Positions 13,406 through 63,503 of a stretch of 64,000 bases of DNA are shown here, in pieces. Numbering within the stretch: position 1 is the stretch's first letter; every line of letters begins with the position of its first letter. A model generated the notes under the pieces. That model ran no database searches. It was not told where the DNA came from and saw only the letters and a program-made list of their open reading frames with translations. The DNA is from Archangium sp. (GTDB lineage Bacteria > Myxococcota > Myxococcia > Myxococcales > Myxococcaceae), in the NCBI GenBank assembly GCA_022843845.1, contig JALHMW010000013.1, forward strand, positions 1 through 64,000. The letters are read 5' to 3'. The position numbers were made by a program, and so were the translations under genes.

Positions 13406-13408
13406 CGA

Positions 13409-14659
13409 TCAGTCGATCTCAAGCTCGGGCGTCGGCTGCTCGCCCACCCGCGCATCGAAGGTGAGCCGGCCGATCTCGCGATCGTCCTTCGAGAGCACCC
13501 GCACCCGGTAGGTGGTGGCTTCGCTGATCGTCGAGTAGGCGAAGGTGTGAAAGCCCTCTTCGTTGCCGCCGCTCAGGCGTGTCTCGAAGGGCTTGTTGCG
13601 CGGCACCCAGCCCTTCTTCGGGTCGTCCATCTCCCAGGCGAACTTGACCGAGTCTTCGAACTTCGTCGGCGCGAACAGCCGCACGAACGTCCACACGCGC
13701 TTCGCCGAGCAGAGCGAGCCTCTCGGCAGCCCCTCACACGGCTTGTCGTCTTCACAGGCGATGTCGGTGCGCGCGTAGCCCTCGCCGCGGTTGAGGCAGA
13801 CGCCGGTGGGCGCGGCGACGTACTCCGAGGCGGTCTTGCGCCAAAATTGCCAGAACGGCGCTGGCTGGTACTCGAGGAGGTACTGCGCCTTCTTGTCGGT
13901 CTTCTCGGCCAGCACGTGGGCGTAGACGTCGATGTGCTTGAGCGAGAGCGGCACCGGAGGGATCGCGCCGAAGAGATAGAAGACGAACAGCGCCGCCTGC
14001 ACGACAAGGCCGGGCACCACGGCACGCTTGAAGGTCCAGTTCGGGTCCTTGTTGAAGCGGGTGAAGACCTTCCACAACCCGAAGGTGACGCACGAGCCGA
14101 TCACGATCGACAGGTAGTACTGCCACGGCGCCAGCTTCCCCGCGATCACCGGCAAGAGGTACGCGAGGAACGACGTCGTCGCGAACGAGAGCATCGCGAT
14201 GCGAACGACAGGCCCCTGCTTCCGAAAGCGAGGCAGCTCATTGGCGATGATCAGCCCCGCGAGGGCGAGGAGGAAGATGAACGACAACAGGCCGCTCGAC
14301 GCGCGGAAGTAGAACACCATGAAGGCGTTGAGCAGCGTGCCGAGGAAGAAGTGCATCACCCAGAGCCGGAAGCTCGCGATGCGGCCGAGCAGGCCCTCGG
14401 GCTCCTTGCCCACCACGTGCAGCCGGTGGTCGGCGAAGATCAGCAACGCTGACAGCACCAGGTACACGCCCTGGTGAATCAACAGCGGCGTCGAGTCGAT
14501 GCGGTGGAGCAGCACCACGTCGAACAAGAAGCCGGCGAAGAAGAACGCGACCTCGAACGCGATGTGGTTCTTCTCTTTGAAGGCCTTGAAGCGCGCCCAG
14601 GGACCAGTGTCCTCGGGCGCGGCAGGAGACGTCGGCTCAGCAGGCGTCACGGGATCCAC
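13409..14659 (-). CDS. membrane protein with C-terminal DUF2914-like domain
   Basis: Multiple TM segments then RLFAPTKFEDSVKFAWEMDDPKKGWVPRNKPFETRLSGGNEEGFHTFAYSTISEATTYRVRVLSKDDREIGRLTF. Confidence 0.75.
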   Translation of the reverse strand: MDPVTPAEPTSPAAPEDTGPWARFKAFKEKNHIAFEVAFFFAGFLFDVVLLHRIDSTPLLIHQGVYLVLSALLIFADHRLHVVGKEPEGLLGRIASFRLWVMHFFLGTLLNAFMVFYFRASSGLLSFIFLLALAGLIIANELPRFRKQGPVVRIAMLSFATTSFLAYLLPVIAGKLAPWQYYLSIVIGSCVTFGLWKVFTRFNKDPNWTFKRAVVPGLVVQAALFVFYLFGAIPPVPLSLKHIDVYAHVLAEKTDKKAQYLLEYQPAPFWQFWRKTASEYVAAPTGVCLNRGEGYARTDIACEDDKPCEGLPRGSLCSAKRVWTFVRLFAPTKFEDSVKFAWEMDDPKKGWVPRNKPFETRLSGGNEEGFHTFAYSTISEATTYRVRVLSKDDREIGRLTFDARVGEQPTPELEID

Positions 14660-14806: not shown

Positions 14807-15103
14807 ATGAAGACGCTGGTCGCGATGGTGGTGCTGGTTTCGGTTTCGGTGTTTGCGGCTCCCGTGGGTGTGCGTTCGGCCTCGCAGCAGGCGCGCATCA
14901 ACCAGGGCGTGCAGTCCGGGCAGCTCAACGGGCGTGAAGCCGCTCGCCTGCAGGCGCAGCAGCACCGCATCGAGCGGCACATCGTGCGAGACAGCATCGA
15001 CGGCGGCGGCATGACGGCCCGTGAAGCGTCGCGTATTCAAGCCAAACAGAACCAGCTCAACCGCCGCATCGCCGTGCAGAAGCACGACGGGCAGGTCCGC
15101 TAA
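14807..15103 (+). CDS. small secreted protein of unknown function
   Basis: 98-aa ORF: MKTLVAMVVLVSVSVFAAPVGVRSASQQARINQGVQSGQLNGREAARLQAQQHRIERHIVRDSIDGGGMTAREASRIQAKQNQLNRRIA; RBS gaaggagaacgac; internal duplication (GREAARLQAQQ / AREASRIQAKQ). Confidence 0.75.
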   Translation: MKTLVAMVVLVSVSVFAAPVGVRSASQQARINQGVQSGQLNGREAARLQAQQHRIERHIVRDSIDGGGMTAREASRIQAKQNQLNRRIAVQKHDGQVR

Positions 15104-15140
15104 CCGTATCGATCATCTCTCCAGGGATGGGCCCTGTCGG
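15101..15140. repeat. direct repeat copy 1
   Basis: taaccgtatcgatcatctctccagggatgggccctgtcgg; 1 mismatch to 16391-16430. Confidence 0.95.
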
Positions 15141-15215
15141 AAGATGGAGGTCCGGCCGGGCGCGCTGCCAGCCTGCTACCCTTGAATACAGTGGCCTCGC
15201 TTGCGTTGAGTTGCC

Positions 15216-16334
15216 ATGCGGTTTGCGCCCCGGACGATCGCGATATGTGGCCTCATCGGCGTCGCGTGTTTTCAGCCGACCTTCGAGCGCATGAGAGACT
15301 CGGTGGGCCTCGAGGAGTGGTGCTCCGTCGTGGTGGCGGAGGAGGCGATGTGCCGGTCCCAGATCGCCTGCGGGCTCGCAGACCCCGACGCTGGGTGCGC
15401 CACCATCGGGGCGAACTCGCGGTTGGCGCGAACGATCGACCCGTGTCCTGAGGCGCTCATCGCAGCGCTCGACGCCGGCTCTGTTCGATATGACGGCCAG
15501 GCCGCCGCCCGGTGCCTCGAGGACCAACAGACCCTGTGTGAAGTGCGGCTCGAGGCGTGCCCGGGTGCCGCGGTCTTCGTCGGCACGAGAGCCGAGGGCG
15601 CGTCCTGCGCCCTCGACCAGGAGTGCTCCGCAGGGCTCTGGTGTTCCTTCTCTGGCACGACTTGCCCTGGGACGTGCCAAAAGCACGCTGCACTCGGAGA
15701 CGTGACGACAGAGCCGTCGGCGTGCGCGACCGAGACCGTGTTGCAGCTGGATGGCGGCTCGTTTCGCTGCATCAACCGGTTGGGAGCCGGGCAGCCGTGC
15801 GATCCGCAGTCCGGAGCGATCTGCTCCGAGGGACTGTCTTGCGAGGAACGGGCCTGCGTTCCCGTCGCCGAGTTGGGAGCCGCCTGCAGTGCCACTCGCC
15901 GATGCAGGTACGGCCTGGTCTGCGTCGCCGACCGCTGCGCAACGTTCGCACGCCGCGGCGAACCGTGCTCCCGTCTCTTCGCTTCCAACCCCAGCACCAG
16001 TCCGTGTCAGCTCGGACTGGCCTGTCGCGGCGGCAGATGTGGTGAGGCCTTTCGGGCTGGAGAACGATGCGCAGAAGACCCGAACCTCTGTACGCCTGAC
16101 TCGCGTTGCACTTCTGACACCTGGGTGTGCACCCCTCGAGCAGCCGCAGGCGCAGCCTGTGAGAGTGACTTCGACTGCCTGGCTCCGCTCGCGTGCGCGG
16201 CCAGCTCCGCGGGCGGTGGGACCTGCCAAGCGGTGGCTGCTGTCGGCGAATCATGTGATGCCACCATCCGCTGTGGGCCCTTCGGTCAATGTCTCAACAA
16301 CCGATGCGTGACGACTGCTCGCGTGTGCCGCTGA
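15216..16334 (+). CDS. Cys-rich secreted lipoprotein (Dickkopf/EGF-like cysteine repeats)
   Basis: MRFAPRTIAICGLIGVACFQPTF lipobox; repeated G-x-x-C-x(5-8)-C-x-x-G-L-x-C units. Confidence 0.75.
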   Translation: MRFAPRTIAICGLIGVACFQPTFERMRDSVGLEEWCSVVVAEEAMCRSQIACGLADPDAGCATIGANSRLARTIDPCPEALIAALDAGSVRYDGQAAARCLEDQQTLCEVRLEACPGAAVFVGTRAEGASCALDQECSAGLWCSFSGTTCPGTCQKHAALGDVTTEPSACATETVLQLDGGSFRCINRLGAGQPCDPQSGAICSEGLSCEERACVPVAELGAACSATRRCRYGLVCVADRCATFARRGEPCSRLFASNPSTSPCQLGLACRGGRCGEAFRAGERCAEDPNLCTPDSRCTSDTWVCTPRAAAGAACESDFDCLAPLACAASSAGGGTCQAVAAVGESCDATIRCGPFGQCLNNRCVTTARVCR

Positions 16335-16389
16335 GGTCGACGCTTGTGGCCGACGACGATGACCAACCCGTACGGAGGTCGTCCTCGCC

Positions 16390-17082
16390 CTAACCGTATC
16401 GATCATCTCTCCAGGGATGGGCCGTGTCGGAGTACCCACGGTCCTCCCAGAAGCCCCGCTGGTTCTTCTCGAGCAGCTCGATGCGGCTGATCCACTTCGG
16501 GCCCTTCCACGCGTAGAGCTGCGGCGTGATGAGGCGCACCGGCCCGCCGTGATCTCTCGGCAGCGGCTGGTCGTTCCACGTGTGCACGAGCAGCACGTCG
16601 TCCTTGAGCAGCTCGAACAACTCGAGGTTGGTCGTGTACTCGTCGGAGGCGTGGAGCAGCGCGTACTGCGCAGACTCCCGCGGCCGGGCCAGCGCGATCA
16701 CCGTCGCGGCCGAGACGCCCTTCCACTTCGAGTCCATCAGGCTCCACGTCGTCACGCAGTGAAAGTCGGAGACGTCTTCCACCTGCGGCAGCGCCATGAA
16801 GGCCGCCCAGTCGAGCCTCACCGGCGCTTCGACCGCGCCATCGACCGTGAGCGACCACTGCGCCGTCGAGATGTTCGGCTTCACGCCCAGATCGAGCACC
16901 GGCCACGACTTCGTCACGTGCTGGCCCGGGGGCACCTTCGGCATGCCGTGGCGATTGGGCGCGCCGCTGCCCATTGGCCGAGGGTCGCTCATCGACGCTG
17001 AGCCCTGAATCTTCGCCAGGTGCCGCTCGCGCAGCTTGAGCCGCGCCTCGACGATGCGCTGCTGCTTCTCGTCGTCCGACAT
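16390..17082 (-). CDS. sulfite oxidase-like molybdopterin-dependent oxidoreductase
   Basis: WSLTVDGAVEAPVRLDWAAFMALPQVEDVSDFHCVTTWSLMDSKWKGVS; DHGGPVRLITPQLYAWKGPKWISRIELL. Confidence 0.88.
   Translation of the reverse strand: MSDDEKQQRIVEARLKLRERHLAKIQGSASMSDPRPMGSGAPNRHGMPKVPPGQHVTKSWPVLDLGVKPNISTAQWSLTVDGAVEAPVRLDWAAFMALPQVEDVSDFHCVTTWSLMDSKWKGVSAATVIALARPRESAQYALLHASDEYTTNLELFELLKDDVLLVHTWNDQPLPRDHGGPVRLITPQLYAWKGPKWISRIELLEKNQRGFWEDRGYSDTAHPWRDDRYG
16391..16430. repeat. direct repeat copy 2 (encodes C-terminus of the oxidoreductase)
   Basis: taaccgtatcgatcatctctccagggatgggccgtgtcgg; reverse strand reads SDTAHPWRDDRYG*. Confidence 0.95.
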
Positions 17083-24089: not shown

Positions 24090-26485
24090 CAGGACGGCGT
24101 CGGCGACACCTCAGGCGAGGTGCGGAAGAAGTCTTCGGGGTGCTCGAGCTTGAGGGCCTCTCGGAGCACCTCGTCGACCGTGTCCACCATCACGATGCGC
24201 AGCACCGAGCGGATGTTCTTCGGCACGTCGCGCAGGTCCTTCTTGTTCTCGCGCGGGATGATGACGGTGGTGATGCCGAGGCGGTGCGCGGCGAGGCACT
24301 TCTCCTTGAGGCCACCGATCGGCGTGACTCGCCCACGCAGGGTGATCTCGCCCGTCATCGCGACGTCGCGCCGCACGGGGATGCGGGTGATCGCCGAGAC
24401 CAGCGCGGTCGCCATCGTCACGCCCGCCGACGGCCCGTCTTTCGGGAACGCGCCGGGGAAGTGAATGTGCATGTCGTTCTTCTCGAAGAACGCGTCCTCG
24501 ATGCCGAGCCGGCGCGCGCGGGTGCGCACCCAGGTGACCGCGGCCTGCGCCGACTCCTTCATCACGTCGCGCAAGACGCCGGTGACGATCAGCTTGCCCT
24601 TGCCGGGCATGGTGGTGGCTTCGGTATGCAGCACCTCGCCGCCGAACTCGGTCCACGCGAGCCCGTTGACCATGCCGATCTGATCGACGTTCTCGTTCTT
24701 GTCCTTCGGCACCCGCGGCACGCCGAGCAGCTTCTTGGTGCGGCGCCGGTCGACGACGATCGGCCCCTTGTCGCCGGCGATCACCTCACGCGCCACCTTG
24801 CGGAACACCGAGGCCAGCTCGCGCTCGAGGCTGCGCACGCCCGACTCGCGCGTGTAGCGCCGAATGATCGTCTTCACGCCGAGGGTGGTGAGCCGAACCT
24901 TGATGTCTTTGAGCCCGTTCGCCTCCTGCTGCTTGGGGATGAGGTACTTGCGCGCGATGCTGAGCTTCTCGTCTTCGGTGTACCCAGCGATGCGGATGAT
25001 CTCCATGCGGTCCTGCAGCGGCTGGGGGATCGAGTGCATCGAGTTCGCGGTGCAGATGAACATCACCTTCGAGAGATCGAAGTCGAGATCGAGGTAGTGA
25101 TCGTTGAAGGTCGAGTTCTGCTCCGGGTCGAGCACCTCGAGCAGCGCGGCCGACGGGTCGCCCCGGAAGTCGCTCGACATCTTGTCGATCTCGTCGAGGA
25201 GGATGACGGGGTTCGCCGACTCGGCCTTCTTGAGCGACTGAATGATCTTCCCCGGCATCGCGCCGATGTACGTGCGGCGGTGGCCACGAATCTCGGCCTC
25301 GTCACGCACCCCGCCCAGCGACATGCGCACGAACTTCCGGCCGAGCGACTTGGCGACCGAGCGGCCCAGCGACGTCTTGCCGACGCCCGGAGGCCCCACG
25401 AAGCACAGAATCGGGCCCTTCAGCTTCCCGACCAGCTGCTGCACGGCCAGGTACTCGAGGATGCGCTCCTTCACCTTCTCGAGGCCGAAGTGATCGTCGT
25501 CGAGCACCTTCTGCGCTTCTTCGACGTCGATCTTATCCTTCGTCTCTTCGCCCCAGGGCAGCGAGAGCACCCAGTCGATGTAGTTGCGCACGACGGTCGC
25601 TTCCGCGCTCATCGGGCCCATCATCTTCAGCTTCTTGATCTCCTTCTTCATGCGGGCGTGAGCTTCTTTCGAGAGCTTCTTCGCCTTGAGCTTGTCTTCG
25701 AGCTCCTGGATCTCGGTCTTGCCGTCGTCGCCCTTGTCGCCCAGCTCACGCTGGATCGCCTGCATCTGCTCGTTGAGGTAATATTCCTTCTGGGTGCGCT
25801 CCATCTGCTTCTTCACGCGGGAGCGGATCTTCTTCTCGACCTTGAGGATCTCGATCTCACCCTGCATCAGCTCGTAGAGCTTCTCGAGGCGCTTGGCGGG
25901 TGACTCGGTCTCGAGCAGGGCCTGCTTGTCGGGCAGCTTCAGCGCGAGGTGCACGCCGATGGTGTCGGCGAGGCGCGACGGGTCTTCGATGAGCGCGACC
26001 TGCTGCATCAGCTCCGGAGCGATGCGCTTGTTGAGCTCGACGAAGGCCTTGAAGGTGGCCTGCACGGCGCGCATCAGCGCCTCGAACTCGGCGGGCGTCG
26101 AGGGCGGCTCCGACACCGGCTCGTAGTCACACTCGAAGTACGGCTCGGTCGGGAGGAAGCCGATCAGGCGCGCGCGCGACAGGCCCTCGACGAGAACCTT
26201 CACCGTGCCGTCGGGCAGCGGCAGCAACTGCACGACCTGCCCGAGCGTGGCGAAGTGGAAGACCTCGTCGGGGGTCGGGTCGTTCGTCTTGGCCTTCTTC
26301 TGGGCCGAGAGGAGCAACAGCGCCTTCCCGTCAGCGCCCTTGCGGGCCATGGCTTCTTTGAGCGCAGCGATCGACTTCTCGCGTCCGACGTAGAGCGGGC
26401 GCACCTCGTGCGGGAACAGGACGATGTCACGCAGGGGCAAAAGCGGAAGAGGCTTCAAGGGCTGTTTCTCCAGGTGACTCGACAA
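24089..26485 (-). CDS. lon: ATP-dependent protease La (Lon)
   Basis: [68 protein letters not shown] catalytic Ser. Confidence 0.98.
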
Positions 26486-26529
26486 CGACGCATTCCTAGC
26501 GTCAGGGAACCGGGCTGACGAGTTTCCAT

Positions 26530-26952
26530 CTATCCAGCTACGGCGAGTTCCTTGGGCTTCAGCATCGCCGCGATCTTGGCGTTCTCGAGCATGTCCCCGA
26601 GCGCGCCCTCAAGATCCTCGACTGTTCGGCACCAGACCACCTGATCGGCGTAGACAAGTTCCACAGGGAATCCGTCGACGGACCTGGTGATGACGCAGAG
26701 AAGCGAAGCGTTGGGCCGATTGCCGAGAATGAACTCATCGGTTTCGATGGCCCAGCTGGGAACGACGGTTCGCCGAGGGTCAATTGACGGGACGCCAACT
26801 CTGTCGACGCGCTGCCCCTTCTGACGAGAAAGCGGCAGGTCGGACTGAACCTCATCGCGGAACATCTGGAGAACGCCGTCGATGGCCTCGTTCACCACTC
26901 GTGCGGCACGGGCCTTCTCGAGGCCACGTTTCTGGTGCTCACTGAATGTCAT
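26530..26952 (-). CDS. hypothetical protein
   Basis: 140-aa ORF starting [24 protein letters not shown]; 14-bp overlap with the upstream EEP gene. Confidence 0.55.
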
Positions 26953-27745
26953 TCGAGTGCTCCTTCGATTCGCCGAGCTGGAGGATGACGGGCAAGTGGT
27001 CACTTGTCATCTCGCCCACACTCACCACCTCGCCACTCGGCTCGTACGGCAGCAAGGCTCCGTTCACCACCCCGAAGTCCACCATCTTCCATTCACTCAA
27101 TTGGACTGGGTCCCACTCCCTCAGCCGCAGGGTCGCCCAACTCGAACCTGTCGCGTGCCAAAAGGGGTTGAAGAAGGCAGCCCGGCCAGCCGCGACCATG
27201 CGCACGTCGCGAGTCGCCCCGAGGTGACGTGTCACGACTTCATCGAACGGCTCGCAGTTGAAATCACCGAGAAGAACTGTTGGCGTGTCAGGCGCTTCCT
27301 TCAAGACCGCCTGAAGGTGACGGCCACAGTCTTCGCGAGCGATCGCGCCGTTGAACAAATCTGTTCGCCAGTGGAGCAGTACGAGACGAAGCAGTGCTCC
27401 CGAGTCGATCGTCCGACAACTGATGACCCACCCCGCGTGAACATGGCGGTTGGCACTCTGAACGATTCTCGAGGCCTCAGAGCGCGGACTCCAATGCGAT
27501 GAATCAAACAGCAGCCCCAGATTCCGCTGTTCGCAGTGCAAGCTTCTCCATGCTCCATGAGCGCCCCGCCTCAACGAACCTTCGAGTTCGGCGAGCCCGG
27601 CTGGAGAGATCTCCGACAGGCCAATCAGCGAACAGCCCTCGTCAATCAACAAGAAGATGGTGGGCATCGAAGCGGCGAGTGACGCATCGCTCGCCTCGCT
27701 CCTCGGCGGGGGCGCGATCTTCGTGTTCCACCACCCGAGCTTCAT
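26939..27745 (-). CDS. endonuclease/exonuclease/phosphatase (EEP) family protein
   Basis: MKLGWWNTKIAPP; TPTVLLGDFNCEPFDEVV; VVSVGEMTSDHLPVILQL. Confidence 0.75.
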   Translation of the reverse strand: MKLGWWNTKIAPPPRSEASDASLAASMPTIFLLIDEGCSLIGLSEISPAGLAELEGSLRRGAHGAWRSLHCEQRNLGLLFDSSHWSPRSEASRIVQSANRHVHAGWVISCRTIDSGALLRLVLLHWRTDLFNGAIAREDCGRHLQAVLKEAPDTPTVLLGDFNCEPFDEVVTRHLGATRDVRMVAAGRAAFFNPFWHATGSSWATLRLREWDPVQLSEWKMVDFGVVNGALLPYEPSGEVVSVGEMTSDHLPVILQLGESKEHSNDIQ

Positions 27746-29925
27746 GGCCGCGGCGGGGTGACACCGAGCGTCGAGAACAGGAAGGCGAGCTGGTCGACGG
27801 ACGACTCGATCGACTTGGCCACCTGATCGGCGCCACCGTGGCCGGCGTTCATCTCGATGCGCAGCCACGAGGTGCCCTGCCCCTTCGTCATGCCCTGCAC
27901 CATCGCGACGAACTTGCGCGCGTGGAACGGGTCGACGCGATCGTCGTGATCGGCCGACATCATCAGCAACGCCGGGTACGAGCCGTGCTCGGTGACGTGG
28001 TGGTAGGGCGAGTACGCCGCGAGCACCTTCAGCTCCTCGGCCTTCTCGGGATCGCCATACTCGGGGATCCACGTCTTGCCAGAGCCGTAGAGGTGGTACC
28101 GCACCATGTCGAGCAGCGGCACCGCGCAGATGACGGCGCCATAGAGCTCCGGGCGTTGGGTCATCGCGGTGCCGACCAGCAAGCCGCCGTTGGAGCCGCC
28201 ACGAATCGCCAGCCGCTTCGGCGTCGTCCACTTCTCCTTCACCAGGTACTCGGCCGCGCCGGCGAAGTCGTCGAACACGTTCTGCTTGTTCGCGCCCTTC
28301 CCTGCGTCGTGCCACGCCTTCCCGTACTCGCCGCCGCCGCGCAGGTTGGGCACGGCGTACACCCCGCCCGCCTCGAGCCATGGGTAGATGAACGAGGTGA
28401 ACGCGCTGGTGAGGCTGATGTCGAAGCCGCCGTACCCGTAGAGGAGCACCGGGTTGTTGCCGTCGAGCACGACATCTTTCCGCGCGACGATGAACATCGA
28501 GATCTGCGTGCCATCTTTCGACGGGTAGAAGACCTGGCGCACCTCGAACTTCGTCGGGTCGACGGGCACCTCGACCGACGCCCACAGCTCGCTCTTGCCG
28601 CTCTTCACGCTCGTCTTGAACACCTGCCGCGGCATCGTGAAGCTCGAGAACGCGTAGTAGGCCTCGTCGTCGTCTTCGTTGCCGACGATGTTCGACGCGG
28701 TGCCGAGGCCGGGGAGCTCGACCGTGCGCACCTTCTTGCCCTTGAAGTCGAACACCTCGACCACGCTGACGGCCTTCTTGAGCGCGGCGATGGCGAAGTG
28801 GCCTCCGACGATGGCGAACGACTCACGCGCCGCGTCCTTGTCTTCGGCGATCAGCTCCTTCCAGTTCGCGCGCTCGGGCTTCTTCGGGTCGACGGCGAAG
28901 AGGCGCTTGTTGGGCGCGCCCTCGTCCGTGAAGACGTAGAAGACGTCCTTCCACGCGTCGACGCCGTACTTCGCGTCCTTGCCCTTCACGAGCAGGCGCC
29001 ACTCCTTGTCGACGCCGGCCTTCTTGAAGAAGACGTCGTTCTCGTTCCAGCCGCGCATGATCGAGACGAAGAGCCACTTGCCGTCGCGAGACGCCTGACC
29101 ACCGATGAACGTCTTGGCGTCGCCAGTGCGCGGGTGGAGCTGCTCGTCCTTCGCGGGATCTTGCCCGAGCACGTGCTTGCGCACCTCGCAGTAGCCGGGG
29201 CGCTCCGAGACGGGGATCTTCTCGTCGGTCGGCAGCCACTCGTAGATGAACGACTTCGAGTCAGGCAGCCACGAGGGGCTCGCGTACTTGCCACCGGGGA
29301 TGACGTCGATCTTCGAGCGTTCACCCGAGTCGACGTCGAGCACGTGCAGCGTCGCTTCGTCGGCCGCGTTGGGCTTCTCGGCGAAGACGACCTTCTTGCC
29401 GTCCCACGAGGGCGACCAGGTGCCGAGCGAGACCGTGTTGTCGTTGGACCACGCGTTCGGGTCGAGCAGCACGTGCTCCTCGCCCTTCGCGTCGCGCCAG
29501 TAGACGACGGCCTTCTCTTTGTCCTTCTTCTGCCGCGTGTAGAACATGCGGCCGCCGCGCTTGATGGGGATGCTGATCGCGTCGAGGTAGTAGAGTTCGG
29601 TGTAGCGCTGCTTGAGCCACTCGAGCCCCGGCAGCGCGCGCAGGTTGGTGCGGGCGTAGTCGTCCTGAGCCTTCATCCACGCCTGCACCTCGGGCGCCTT
29701 CTCGTCCTCGAGCCAGCGGTACGGGTCCTTGAGCGTCAGGCCGTGGACCATGTCGTTGATGACCTGCGTACGAGTCGGCGGCACCATGGGCTTCTTCGGC
29801 TCCGGGGGAGTGGGAACGCCTGCGTCGCGCTGCATCGCCACACCCACGATGGGCTCGGGCTTCACTGCGTCTTGCGTCGAGGCACAGCTGAGGGAAAAAA
29901 GGCTGACAACGAGCAGTCGTCGCAT
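27742..29925 (-). CDS. prolyl oligopeptidase family (S9) lipoprotein
   Basis: YRWLEDEKAPEVQAWMKAQDDYART; AIRGGSNGGLLVGTAMTQRPELYGAVI; GHGGADQV. Confidence 0.93.
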   Translation of the reverse strand: MRRLLVVSLFSLSCASTQDAVKPEPIVGVAMQRDAGVPTPPEPKKPMVPPTRTQVINDMVHGLTLKDPYRWLEDEKAPEVQAWMKAQDDYARTNLRALPGLEWLKQRYTELYYLDAISIPIKRGGRMFYTRQKKDKEKAVVYWRDAKGEEHVLLDPNAWSNDNTVSLGTWSPSWDGKKVVFAEKPNAADEATLHVLDVDSGERSKIDVIPGGKYASPSWLPDSKSFIYEWLPTDEKIPVSERPGYCEVRKHVLGQDPAKDEQLHPRTGDAKTFIGGQASRDGKWLFVSIMRGWNENDVFFKKAGVDKEWRLLVKGKDAKYGVDAWKDVFYVFTDEGAPNKRLFAVDPKKPERANWKELIAEDKDAARESFAIVGGHFAIAALKKAVSVVEVFDFKGKKVRTVELPGLGTASNIVGNEDDDEAYYAFSSFTMPRQVFKTSVKSGKSELWASVEVPVDPTKFEVRQVFYPSKDGTQISMFIVARKDVVLDGNNPVLLYGYGGFDISLTSAFTSFIYPWLEAGGVYAVPNLRGGGEYGKAWHDAGKGANKQNVFDDFAGAAEYLVKEKWTTPKRLAIRGGSNGGLLVGTAMTQRPELYGAVICAVPLLDMVRYHLYGSGKTWIPEYGDPEKAEELKVLAAYSPYHHVTEHGSYPALLMMSADHDDRVDPFHARKFVAMVQGMTKGQGTSWLRIEMNAGHGGADQVAKSIESSVDQLAFLFSTLGVTPPRP

Positions 29926-30324: not shown

Positions 30325-31605
<1,281 letters not shown>

Positions 31606-31687
31606 GACTTCATCCACCCTAACCGGGGTTTCCTTGATGTGCGAGCGATGCACCGAGCCGGCTGAGCAGGCGTCAGCAACCTGACGG

Positions 31688-33247
31688 CTACCCGCAGGTG
31701 CCGACACCCGGGAAGCCACCGAGCGGTTGGCAGGTCCCGCTCGAACAGGTCGGCGCGTTCGGGTCGCAGAGATCCTGGCAGGCGAAGTTCATCGAGCCAC
31801 TCGGCGCCACGCAGGTGAGCCCCGCCGAGCAGCTGTTGGCGGCGGTGCAGGTGATGCCGACCGATTGCCAGCCCTCGGGGGCGCACACCGCACCGTTCGT
31901 CGTCGCGTAACAGGCAGCCACGCAGTCCTGCTTGAGCAGATCGCAGGCCTGACCGTTCAGCTTCAGACACACCTGAGCGCCGCTGCTCCACTGACAGCTC
32001 TCACCCGCGCCACAGGTCGACGAGGAGCCGCAGAGCCGTGCACAGAAGCCGATGGAGCTTCCGGTGCGTTGCTCACAGCGCGTTCCCTGGCTGCAGTCGG
32101 CGTTGGTGGCGCAGATCTCACCCGCGAGGCCCACGCCCGGCCTCTCGCAGACGCCAGCAGACGCCAGCGGGCTCGGGTAGCAGGCCAGCGAAGGATCGCT
32201 GCAGGCCCCTTGAAACGAGCAGGTCGGCGAACACGTGCGCCCATCGCCAGCCAGGTCGAACGGGCACTCACACGACACCTGCGAGGCCGTGAACTGATCG
32301 CACCTCGCGCGAGGATGACAGCCTCCGTTGTTCGTCGCGCACGCATCGACCACACACTGCGAGCCGACCCGCCTGAAGCCGGTCGCACAGTCACACGTCG
32401 CACCGGGCCTCTCGTTGCGGCACACCTCGTTGGCGCCGCAGCGCAGCGTCCCCCGGGCACACTCGTCGACGTCGACGCAGCCGAGCGTGGGGTGGCCTTC
32501 GGAGCCGCTCGGGCACGAACACGACGGGCCCGAGAAGCACGCGCTTCCGCACGTCGTCCCACCGCTGGAGCATCGACAGGTTCCTGACTGACACGTCGAA
32601 CCACTCGCGCGGCAGTCGGCGTTCGAGAAGCACCGGCGGGTGCAGGCGCGCGTCTCGGGATCGCAGCCAAAGTCGGCCGGGCACTGCGTCGCCAGGCAGT
32701 CGGTCGGCAGCGCTTCACAGCGCCCGGAGTTGCACACCAGGCCGGCCCCACACTGGTTGCCACATCGGCCGCAGTGGCTCTCGTCAGTGGCGAGATCGAC
32801 ACAGGCGTTGTTGCACTCGGTCGTCGTTCCCGCACAGCGCGAGCCCATCGCGGCCACGCCACCTCCCGCGCCGCCTGCACGCCCACCAGCAGCGCCTCCG
32901 GCCATCGACGTAGGGGCGGCACCTCCCGCTGACCCGCCACCGAGTCCGCCAGCCGTTGGCGCCGGCCCGGGGGTTCCCCGCCCTGCGCAGACGCCCACGG
33001 TGCACGTCTGATCGCTCTGACACGTCGAGCACGCCTGACCCGCGATGCCGCACGCTTCGCGGAACGTGCCGACCTGACACCGATCCATCGCGTCACAGCA
33101 GCCCGAGCACGTGGCCTGACACGAGTCGCGGAACGAGGGTCCACATCCGCTCGAGAGGAACAACGCGATGAAGAGCAGGACGACGGGGGCGCGCAGGCCC
33201 GACACGAGGGCACCGCACACCAGGTTCTTCGGGGTTTCGACGTTCAT
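31688..33247 (-). CDS. Cys-rich lipoprotein with EGF-like domains and Gly/Ala linker
   Basis: [101 protein letters not shown] (EGF-like). Confidence 0.8.
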
Positions 33248-33289
33248 GCCCGGTGAGTGGGAGCACCCACCGGGCATTTTGAAACGGAC

Positions 33290-33907
33290 TTATTTCTTCT
33301 CGGCCGTCGGCGGGGCGGGCTTCTTCTTCTCCATCACCTCGTCGATGAGGCCGTACTGCTTGGCCTCGAGCCCGCTCATGAAGAAGTCGCGATCGCAGTC
33401 CTGCTCGATGCGCTCGTAGGTGTGGCCCGTCGCCTTCCCGAGGATGTCGTAGAGCGCCTTGCGCAGGCGGACCATCTCGGCGACCTGAATCTCCATGTCC
33501 TTCGACTGACCGCGCGCACCACCGAGGGGCTGGTGAATCATCACGCGCGCGTTGGGCAGGGCGAACCGCTTGCCCTTCGCGCCCGCGCCGAGGAGCACCG
33601 CGCCCATCGACGCCGCCTGCCCGATGCAGATCGTCGACACCTGCGGCTTCACGTATTGCATGGTGTCGTAGATCGCGAGGCCGGCCGTCACCGAGCCGCC
33701 GGGCGAGTTGATGTAGATGCTGATGTCCTTGTCCGGGTCCTCCGACTCGAGGAACAGCAGCTGCGCGATGATGACGTTCGCTACGTCGTCATCGATCTCC
33801 GTGCCCATCATGATGATCCGGTCCTTCAGCAGGCGGCTGTAGATGTCGTACGACCGCTCGCCACGGTGGGTCTGCTCGACGACGTAGGGGACAGGCATGT
33901 AGGGCAT
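33290..33907 (-). CDS. clpP: ATP-dependent Clp protease proteolytic subunit
   Basis: [66 protein letters not shown]. Confidence 0.98.
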
Positions 33908-33933
33908 GGCGTTCCTCGGGGTGGACTGCGGGG

Positions 33934-35209
33934 TCAGCTCCAGCTGGCGTGCTGGCGAACGAGCGCCATCGCCTTCTCTTCGATGATGCGCGTCTTGAGG
34001 CTGTCCTGCGCCTCGGGCGCGACGTAGCGGGCCTTCACCTGCGCGGCGGGCATGCCGGTCTCTTTCGAGATCTCTTCGTACTTCGCCTCGAGCTCGGCCT
34101 CGCCAGCGCTCAGGTTCTCGGTCTTGCCGAGCGCCTCGAGCAGCATCGAGCCACGCACTTCGACCTCGGCGCGCGGGCGCATCTCACTGCGCAGCTTGCC
34201 CCAGTCCAGGTTGAGCATTCGCGGGTCGACGCCCGAGCGCATCAGCGACTGAAGCGCGCCGTCGAGCATGAAGTCGACACCACGATCGATCATCGACGCC
34301 GGGCACTCGAACGGGTTCTTCTCGATGAGCGCCTTGAGCAGCTCTTCACGCGCCTCGGTCTCGACGCGGTTCTTCGCGCCGCGCTCGAGGTCGGCCTTCA
34401 CCTTGGCCTTCAGCGCGTCGAGCGTGTCCGAGCCCTGGCTCCTGGCGAACTCGTCGTTGAGCTCAGGCAGCTTGCGCTCCTTGAGCTCCTTCAGCGTGGC
34501 GGTGAAGCTGGCCGTCTGGCCCTTCACTTCCGCGACGCGGTAATCGGCGGGGAACGCGTAGTCGAACGTCTTCTGCTCGCCGACCTTCATGCCGTCGAGC
34601 TGCGGCAGGTTGCCCTCGACGAGCTCGCCAGCAGCGACCTCGACGGTGACGTTGCGGCCGGTGTTGCCGGGGAACGCCTCGCCGCCCTTCGTCGCGTCGA
34701 AGTCGATCACCGCCATGTCGCCGAGCTTCGCCACGTCACGGCCGGCGACGGTCTCGAGCGTCGAGCGCGACTCGCGCAGGCGATCGATCTGCTCCGTCAC
34801 CTTCGCGTCGTCGATCGTCGCGTCCTGCTTCTTGAGCGAGAGGCCCTTGAACTCCTTCACCGTGAGCTCGGGCTTGACCTCGAAGCGCGCGGTGAACGCG
34901 TACGTCTCGTTCGGCACCAGCTTGCCCCCAGCGTAGTGCGGCTCGCCCACGGCCTTCACGTCGTTGGCCTTGATGGCGTCGACGGTGGCCTGCGCCTGCA
35001 CGCGGCGAACGACGTCGGCTTCGACCTCGTTCTTGTACTTCTGCTCGAGGATTCGACGCGGCACGCGACCCGGGCGGAAGCCGGGGATCTTCACCTGCTG
35101 CGCAAGCGTGGCGTAGGCCTGCGTGAGCTCGCGGTTGACGACCTGTGCGTCGACTTCGATCGACAGCCGCTTCTCGATGGATGACACCGACTCGACCTGA
35201 ACCTTCATG
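33934..35209 (-). CDS. tig: trigger factor
   Basis: [58 protein letters not shown]. Confidence 0.95.
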
Positions 35210-35378
35210 CGTGCTTCCTCGGGGAAAAGTGATTCGAACCCGCCGCCTTTAGGGGACCGGGTGGAGCGGGTCAACGAAGAGGAAGCAGACGCACCGGGCA
35301 CCGGCGGAACCATCGCGCGCCGCGCGGCACTGCACATCGCGCAAATGGGTGGGGACTCGCCGTCGAGGGAGTGCGACT

Positions 35379-35460
35379 TGGGCAAGGGGGGACTTGAACC
35401 CCCACTCCTTTCGGAACCGGATTCTAAGCCCGGCGCGGCTACCAGTTACGCCACCTGCCC
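35379..35460 (-). tRNA. tRNA-Leu (anticodon TAG)
   Basis: Reverse strand GGGCAGGTGGCGTAACTGGTAGCCGCGCCGGGCTTAGAATCCGG...GGGGGTTCAAGTCCCCCCTTGCCC; acceptor and T arms pair; loop CTTAGAA; long variable arm. Confidence 0.92.

Positions 35461-59795: not shown

Positions 59796-63503
<3,708 letters not shown>

Follow-up and report, generated by a model that had tools for sequence, protein, structure and literature searches.

A circularised fragment that enters Escherichia coli by conjugation and shares partial homology with the end of a gene integrates by a single crossover and thereby duplicates that gene end, as observed in 56 of 60 clones, with duplications of 109-950 bp in the 14 clones sequenced (PMC3240628). 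A related process, homology-facilitated illegitimate recombination (HFIR), is described in S. pneumoniae, A. baylyi and P. stutzeri (reviewed in PMC3240628), and HFIR has also been proposed for the T6SS effector genes of Vibrio cholerae and for Rhs C-termini, where old 3' ends have been displaced (PMC5361080). In nature, the entry of single orphan genes into compact neighbourhoods without mobile-element machinery is poorly documented. In plants (rice), patch-mediated insertions with tandem duplications reportedly place stray DNA between long, variable direct duplications. Here, we describe a locus of this general kind in the draft genome of an Archangium sp. (referred to as G000), situated in a stretch of 64,000 nucleotides of contig C13 that we call the window.

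A direct repeat made of a gene end, and the segment it flanks

A repeat search of the window returned a direct repeat of 42 nucleotides, at 15100-15141 and 16390-16431, with a single mismatch (41/42 matching) and a spacing of 1290, in agreement with the near-identical repeat of about 42 bp described in the original prediction. Since about 1e-12 such pairs are expected in 64 kb, chance cannot produce it. Copy 2 (16390-16431, minus strand) had been read as the C-terminus of a sulfite-oxidase-like gene, and it is exactly that: the last 14 codons, stop included, of the intact oxidoreductase gene (gene A; 16390-17082, minus strand; PF00174, molybdopterin-binding), with the insert junction exactly at the stop codon. 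Copy 1 (15100-15141, minus strand), which we call A', is a displaced duplicate of this 3' end joined to the original downstream sequence. It had been placed at the TAA of a small gene with the oxidoreductase stop retained in antisense; both features are seen, copy 1 starting one base 5' of the TAA (15101-15103). The small gene itself (14807-15103, plus strand) encodes a secreted-type protein, is common to G003 only, and has its stop codon supplied by the oxidoreductase end, the TAA overlapping the oxidoreductase stop. It is followed outwards by a membrane-protein gene with no Pfam match (13409-14659, minus strand), which in relatives comes directly after the oxidoreductase gene. With up to 3 mismatches allowed, the 30-mer core of the repeat is found at only 2 places in the 4.95-Mb assembly. 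A dispersed repeat is thus ruled out. Among other species records, a degenerate 27-mer of the repeat has a single match, on a Myxococcales MAG contig that is probably G003 itself.

The segment between the copies (15142-16389, 1248 bp) contains one plausible gene, as predicted, at 15216-16334 on the plus strand. It encodes a protein of 372 amino acids, 42 of them Cys, for which Pfam gives matches to EB, DUF7107 and Dickkopf_N, all sub-threshold. By eye, the N-terminus resembles a signal peptide with a weak lipobox (GVAC), and the protein is probably secreted. At the protein level, relatives of the gene are limited to distant Cys-rich proteins (31-44% over parts), and a scan of genomes from 85,462 species found no relative of the insert protein. 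At the nucleotide level, no extended relative was found in the genome itself or in 60 relatives, where matches amount to patches of 28-66 bases. The search for the insert elsewhere in the genome, suggested in the original prediction, thus gave no second nucleotide copy, which rules out copying from another place in this genome. The insert has no terminal repeats, its termini share no similarity above that of shuffled sequences, and neither the open reading frames nor Pfam reveal a transposase in the segment; a transposon, insertion sequence or MITE is ruled out on these grounds. Elsewhere in the window, short, imperfect repeats of the type GAGGTCTGCGACGACGGCAACA are numerous at 59970-62980, which apparently contains one or more genes for Cys-rich repeat proteins.

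Empty sites in relatives and further scars in the genome

In the closest relative, G003, the oxidoreductase is 98% identical. The G003 alignment covers the window up to 15141 and resumes at 16390, and the two matches overlap on G003 by a single 42-mer, which there joins the small gene to the oxidoreductase gene, the insert being missing. The decisive prediction of the insertion reading therefore held, and the other relatives examined lack the insert as well. In G005, G002, G024 and G008, both the insert and the small gene are absent, and the oxidoreductase stop adjoins the membrane-protein gene. Three bases common to both window copies differ from G003, and G005 has the G003 base at the 2 sites that can be compared. 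Because both copies carry the same three non-G003 bases, the duplication is recent and local, having arisen in the G000 lineage after the split. Alignment of these genomes shows that, once the G000 and G003 lineages had parted, a segment of 1248 bp was inserted between gene A and the gene next to it. Precise excision in G003 was considered and ruled out, since the insert is missing from the other relatives too and the G000-specific bases are common to both copies.

The convergent pair with overlapping stops that had been proposed as ancestral stands as the immediate pre-insertion state but not as the ancestral one, the small gene being missing from G005, G002, G024 and G008. For the same reason the small gene (14807-15103) looks like an earlier insertion, probably at the same point. 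In G004 (C123; 410-1504 of locus L005), an AlkZ-like DNA glycosylase gene (PF06224) is inserted at the same oxidoreductase stop, and the oxidoreductase end supplies its last codons and its own stop. With a different newcomer at the same point, the gap after the oxidoreductase gene is thus a repeated landing place. Two other places in the window also differ between relatives. Firstly, at 26460-27750, lon and a prolyl oligopeptidase gene are separated by another G000-only insertion, of ~1.29 kb; it is absent in G003, G005 and G002, has no flanking repeat, replaces ~60-80 bp and alters the last codons of the oligopeptidase. Secondly, at the gene boundary at 13406, G003 has ~1.7 kb and G005 ~0.5 kb extra relative to the window.

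A census of direct repeats 0.3-6 kb apart was made over 2.44 Mb of G000 (about half of the assembly), and candidates were compared with relatives and sorted by inspection rather than by a blind rule. Many of the other repeats are gene-internal repeats, tandem paralogues or tRNA ends. The layout seen in the window is repeated at four other places, three of them confirmed and one probable. In all five cases the order is intact gene A, insert, second 3' end of A, original downstream neighbour; in the window and three other cases, the duplicated sequence is one end of a chromosomal gene that is single-copy in relatives. The repeats measure 42, ~79, 150, ~256 and 268 bp and derive from a different gene each time. 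This variation speaks against the "att-like" integration put forward in the original prediction, as does the contig: the segment was said to encode no recombinase, and there is no recombinase gene on the whole of C13 either.

In case 2 (C2, 6120-6269 and 7576-7725; 138/150 identical), all six genus relatives have a one-copy empty site. The insert matches, at 80% identity, the 5' part of a longer HYDIN/ASH-domain gene located elsewhere in G003, and this match goes no further than the insertion junction. What entered here is a truncated gene fragment, and the term "cassette" used in the original prediction is too strong. As to a possible movement of this gene within G000, the flanks of its old locus were looked for in G000 and not found. 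In case 3 (C8, from 115314 and from 117026; ~256 bp), the sequence is single-copy in G001, G005 and G004, and the two copies in G000 are 16% apart, as much as different species. Replacement of this gene A over its whole length was considered and dropped, G003 itself being the odd one out in the middle of the gene. Case 4, the probable one (C5, 50216 and 54431), has a repeat of ~79 bp around 4.1 kb, and its flanks lie close together in relatives. In case 5 (C1, 48329-48596 and 49395-49662; 250/268 identical), five relatives have a single copy, with the start codon of the next gene overlapping the stop that is duplicated in G000; the insert retains a piece like the 5' end of A, as if the displaced A had eroded. 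Past the stop codon, the junction between intact A and insert lies at 0 bp in the window, 7 bp in case 2, 0 bp in case 3, 1 bp in case 4 and 3-4 bp in case 5. No duplicated 5' gene ends were seen in the 2.44-Mb census, which would have listed them.

Possible routes of entry

The explanation that we tentatively favour, giving it close to an even chance, is that foreign DNA was integrated in a one-sided, homology-assisted manner, with a homologous join at the 3' end of A and an illegitimate one on the other side. The incoming DNA would have carried the 3' end of A followed by the insert (X); homology within this 3' end would join it to the chromosome, and the far end of X would be joined illegitimately inside A, either because the fragment had circularised and undergone one crossover or through one-sided recombination. 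Thanks to the far copy of A's end, the gene originally next to A would retain its stop or start signals, and the event would therefore be tolerated in a compact gene order. The A/X junction would fall at the stop codon because the shared sequence ends where A ends. The single crossovers of circularised fragments observed in E. coli yield precisely this arrangement (PMC3240628).

Alternatively, nicks on opposite strands, 42 bp apart in the window, may have been filled in and a stray fragment ligated between the ends by end joining, leaving a long duplication of variable length, much as in the patch-mediated insertions of plants. We regard such a capture at a staggered break as the main rival, possible though less likely. 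It suits the window case well: the copies are derived from the local sequence, they are identical bar one base and share the G000-specific bases, and there is no clear microhomology at the junctions. The insert of case 2, an arbitrary gene fragment, is also what this route would pick up. The genome encodes Ku; under both models, the illegitimate join can thus probably be made by end joining. A random staggered break followed by fill-in would, however, place the junction anywhere past the stop, and the five flush junctions (at most 7 bp from the stop of the intact gene in 5/5 cases, which were picked by inspection) call for a reason that nothing in this model provides. Nor does it account for the duplicated ends being all 3' and never, by inspection, 5'. 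In case 3, moreover, the copies are as divergent as different species, so they did not arise in one recent local duplication, which favours import.

Homology-assisted integration makes a prediction about hybrid copies: near the stop, the intact copy should be donor-like and the remnant native, and at the opposite end of the repeat the roles should be exchanged. Donor-like differences show this tendency in cases 2, 3 and 5, where they are found more towards the stop within the intact copy and more towards the far junction within the remnant (combined P = 0.001). The informative half of this test, sites where the intact copy has changed and the remnant is like G003, is not significant alone (P = 0.15), however, and constraint on the remnant could account for the other half. 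For the window case, the copies offer only one differing site for such a test. Two features of the window weigh against the homology-assisted route there. The copies share the G000-specific bases, which would require a conspecific donor, and RecA-type pairing would have only a short stretch, 42 bp, to act on. Together, the shared bases and the very short repeat fit either a same-species donor or a true staggered-break duplication. An A-X donor arrangement was not found in the six genus relatives or in the collection scans, both of which sample other species.

The remaining explanations carry far less weight. An assembly chimera, in which the assembler would have joined contigs from strains with A-X and A-D arrangements, is unlikely. 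G000 is a draft, 86% complete and in 54 contigs, and such an error would produce a junction at a gene end together with a remnant of any length; against this, both junctions are continuous and without Ns, ordinary reads are longer than the 42-bp repeat, which has different sequence on its two flanks, the same polarity is found at five independent loci, and completeness and contamination (1.2%) are unremarkable. Slightly less probable still is an undescribed capture route in this lineage that targets gene 3' ends as such: at stop codons or immediately beyond them, DNA would be opened or synthesis primed, and stray fragments would be incorporated there; if it existed, single orphan genes would pile up flush with stops beside variable duplications of the upstream gene end.

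Site-specific integration of a tiny non-autonomous element, one that would use gene 3' ends as attachment sites and depend on an integrase acting in trans, is the most improbable of the routes we graded. Elements of this type do regenerate gene 3' ends, and eight Phage_integrase proteins score over the cut-off in the genome, one of them encoded on C3 beside a repeat made of a tRNA end. Repeat length and target gene nevertheless vary from case to case, C13 has no Phage_integrase match, and no viral contig carried the oxidoreductase gene end. A phage or att source of the repeat was rejected on the same basis, the five viral matches to the degenerate gene end including none that encodes the gene. 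The C3 repeat, which lies in the region 212733-215121, is 46 bp long and resembles a tRNA 3' end, has its copies 822 bp apart next to a Phage_integrase gene with an arm-binding domain, and is a probable classical att site. C27 carries a Phage_integrase-family cluster at 30752-35408, where ~4 kb contain five matches over the cut-off, distributed over both strands. An integron gene cassette is argued against by the repeat being coding sequence of the host gene.

Relation to described systems

In this compact genome, the gain of single foreign genes seems to follow a repeatable route for which they need no transposase of their own. The scars are legible in a single genome and the empty sites in its relatives, and the common layout of the scars leaves both neighbours intact; the route can therefore be counted in other genomes and tested by a simple transformation assay.

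Integrase attachment sites at gene 3' ends resemble these scars in that the direct repeat corresponds to the end of the target gene and the gene is regenerated. There, site and repeat are fixed for each integrase, whereas here lengths vary, the target is new each time and the insert encodes no integrase. The patch-mediated insertions reported for plants also have stray DNA between long, variable direct duplications; they are eukaryotic, and their junctions are not known to be tied to stop codons. HFIR resembles our cases in having homology at one end, an illegitimate join at the other and a gain of ~1 kb of foreign DNA. Classical events, however, delete recipient DNA and often involve 3-10 bp of microhomology, while in the window case recipient DNA is duplicated and no microhomology is evident; HFIR in its classical form was rejected because of this duplication. 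In the T6SS and Rhs displacements, as here, the incoming module is attached behind an upstream anchor that is conserved, and the old 3' end is pushed downstream (PMC5361080), but those are modular toxin/immunity loci, whereas the genes described here are of housekeeping type and keep their function, and the newcomers are unrelated. The E. coli single-crossover integrations were obtained with an engineered plasmid and a lacZ target, whereas the present scars are natural, affect several genes, have shorter repeats and come with no known donor; what both have in common is an insert flanked by a duplication, variable in length, of the end of the target gene (PMC3240628).
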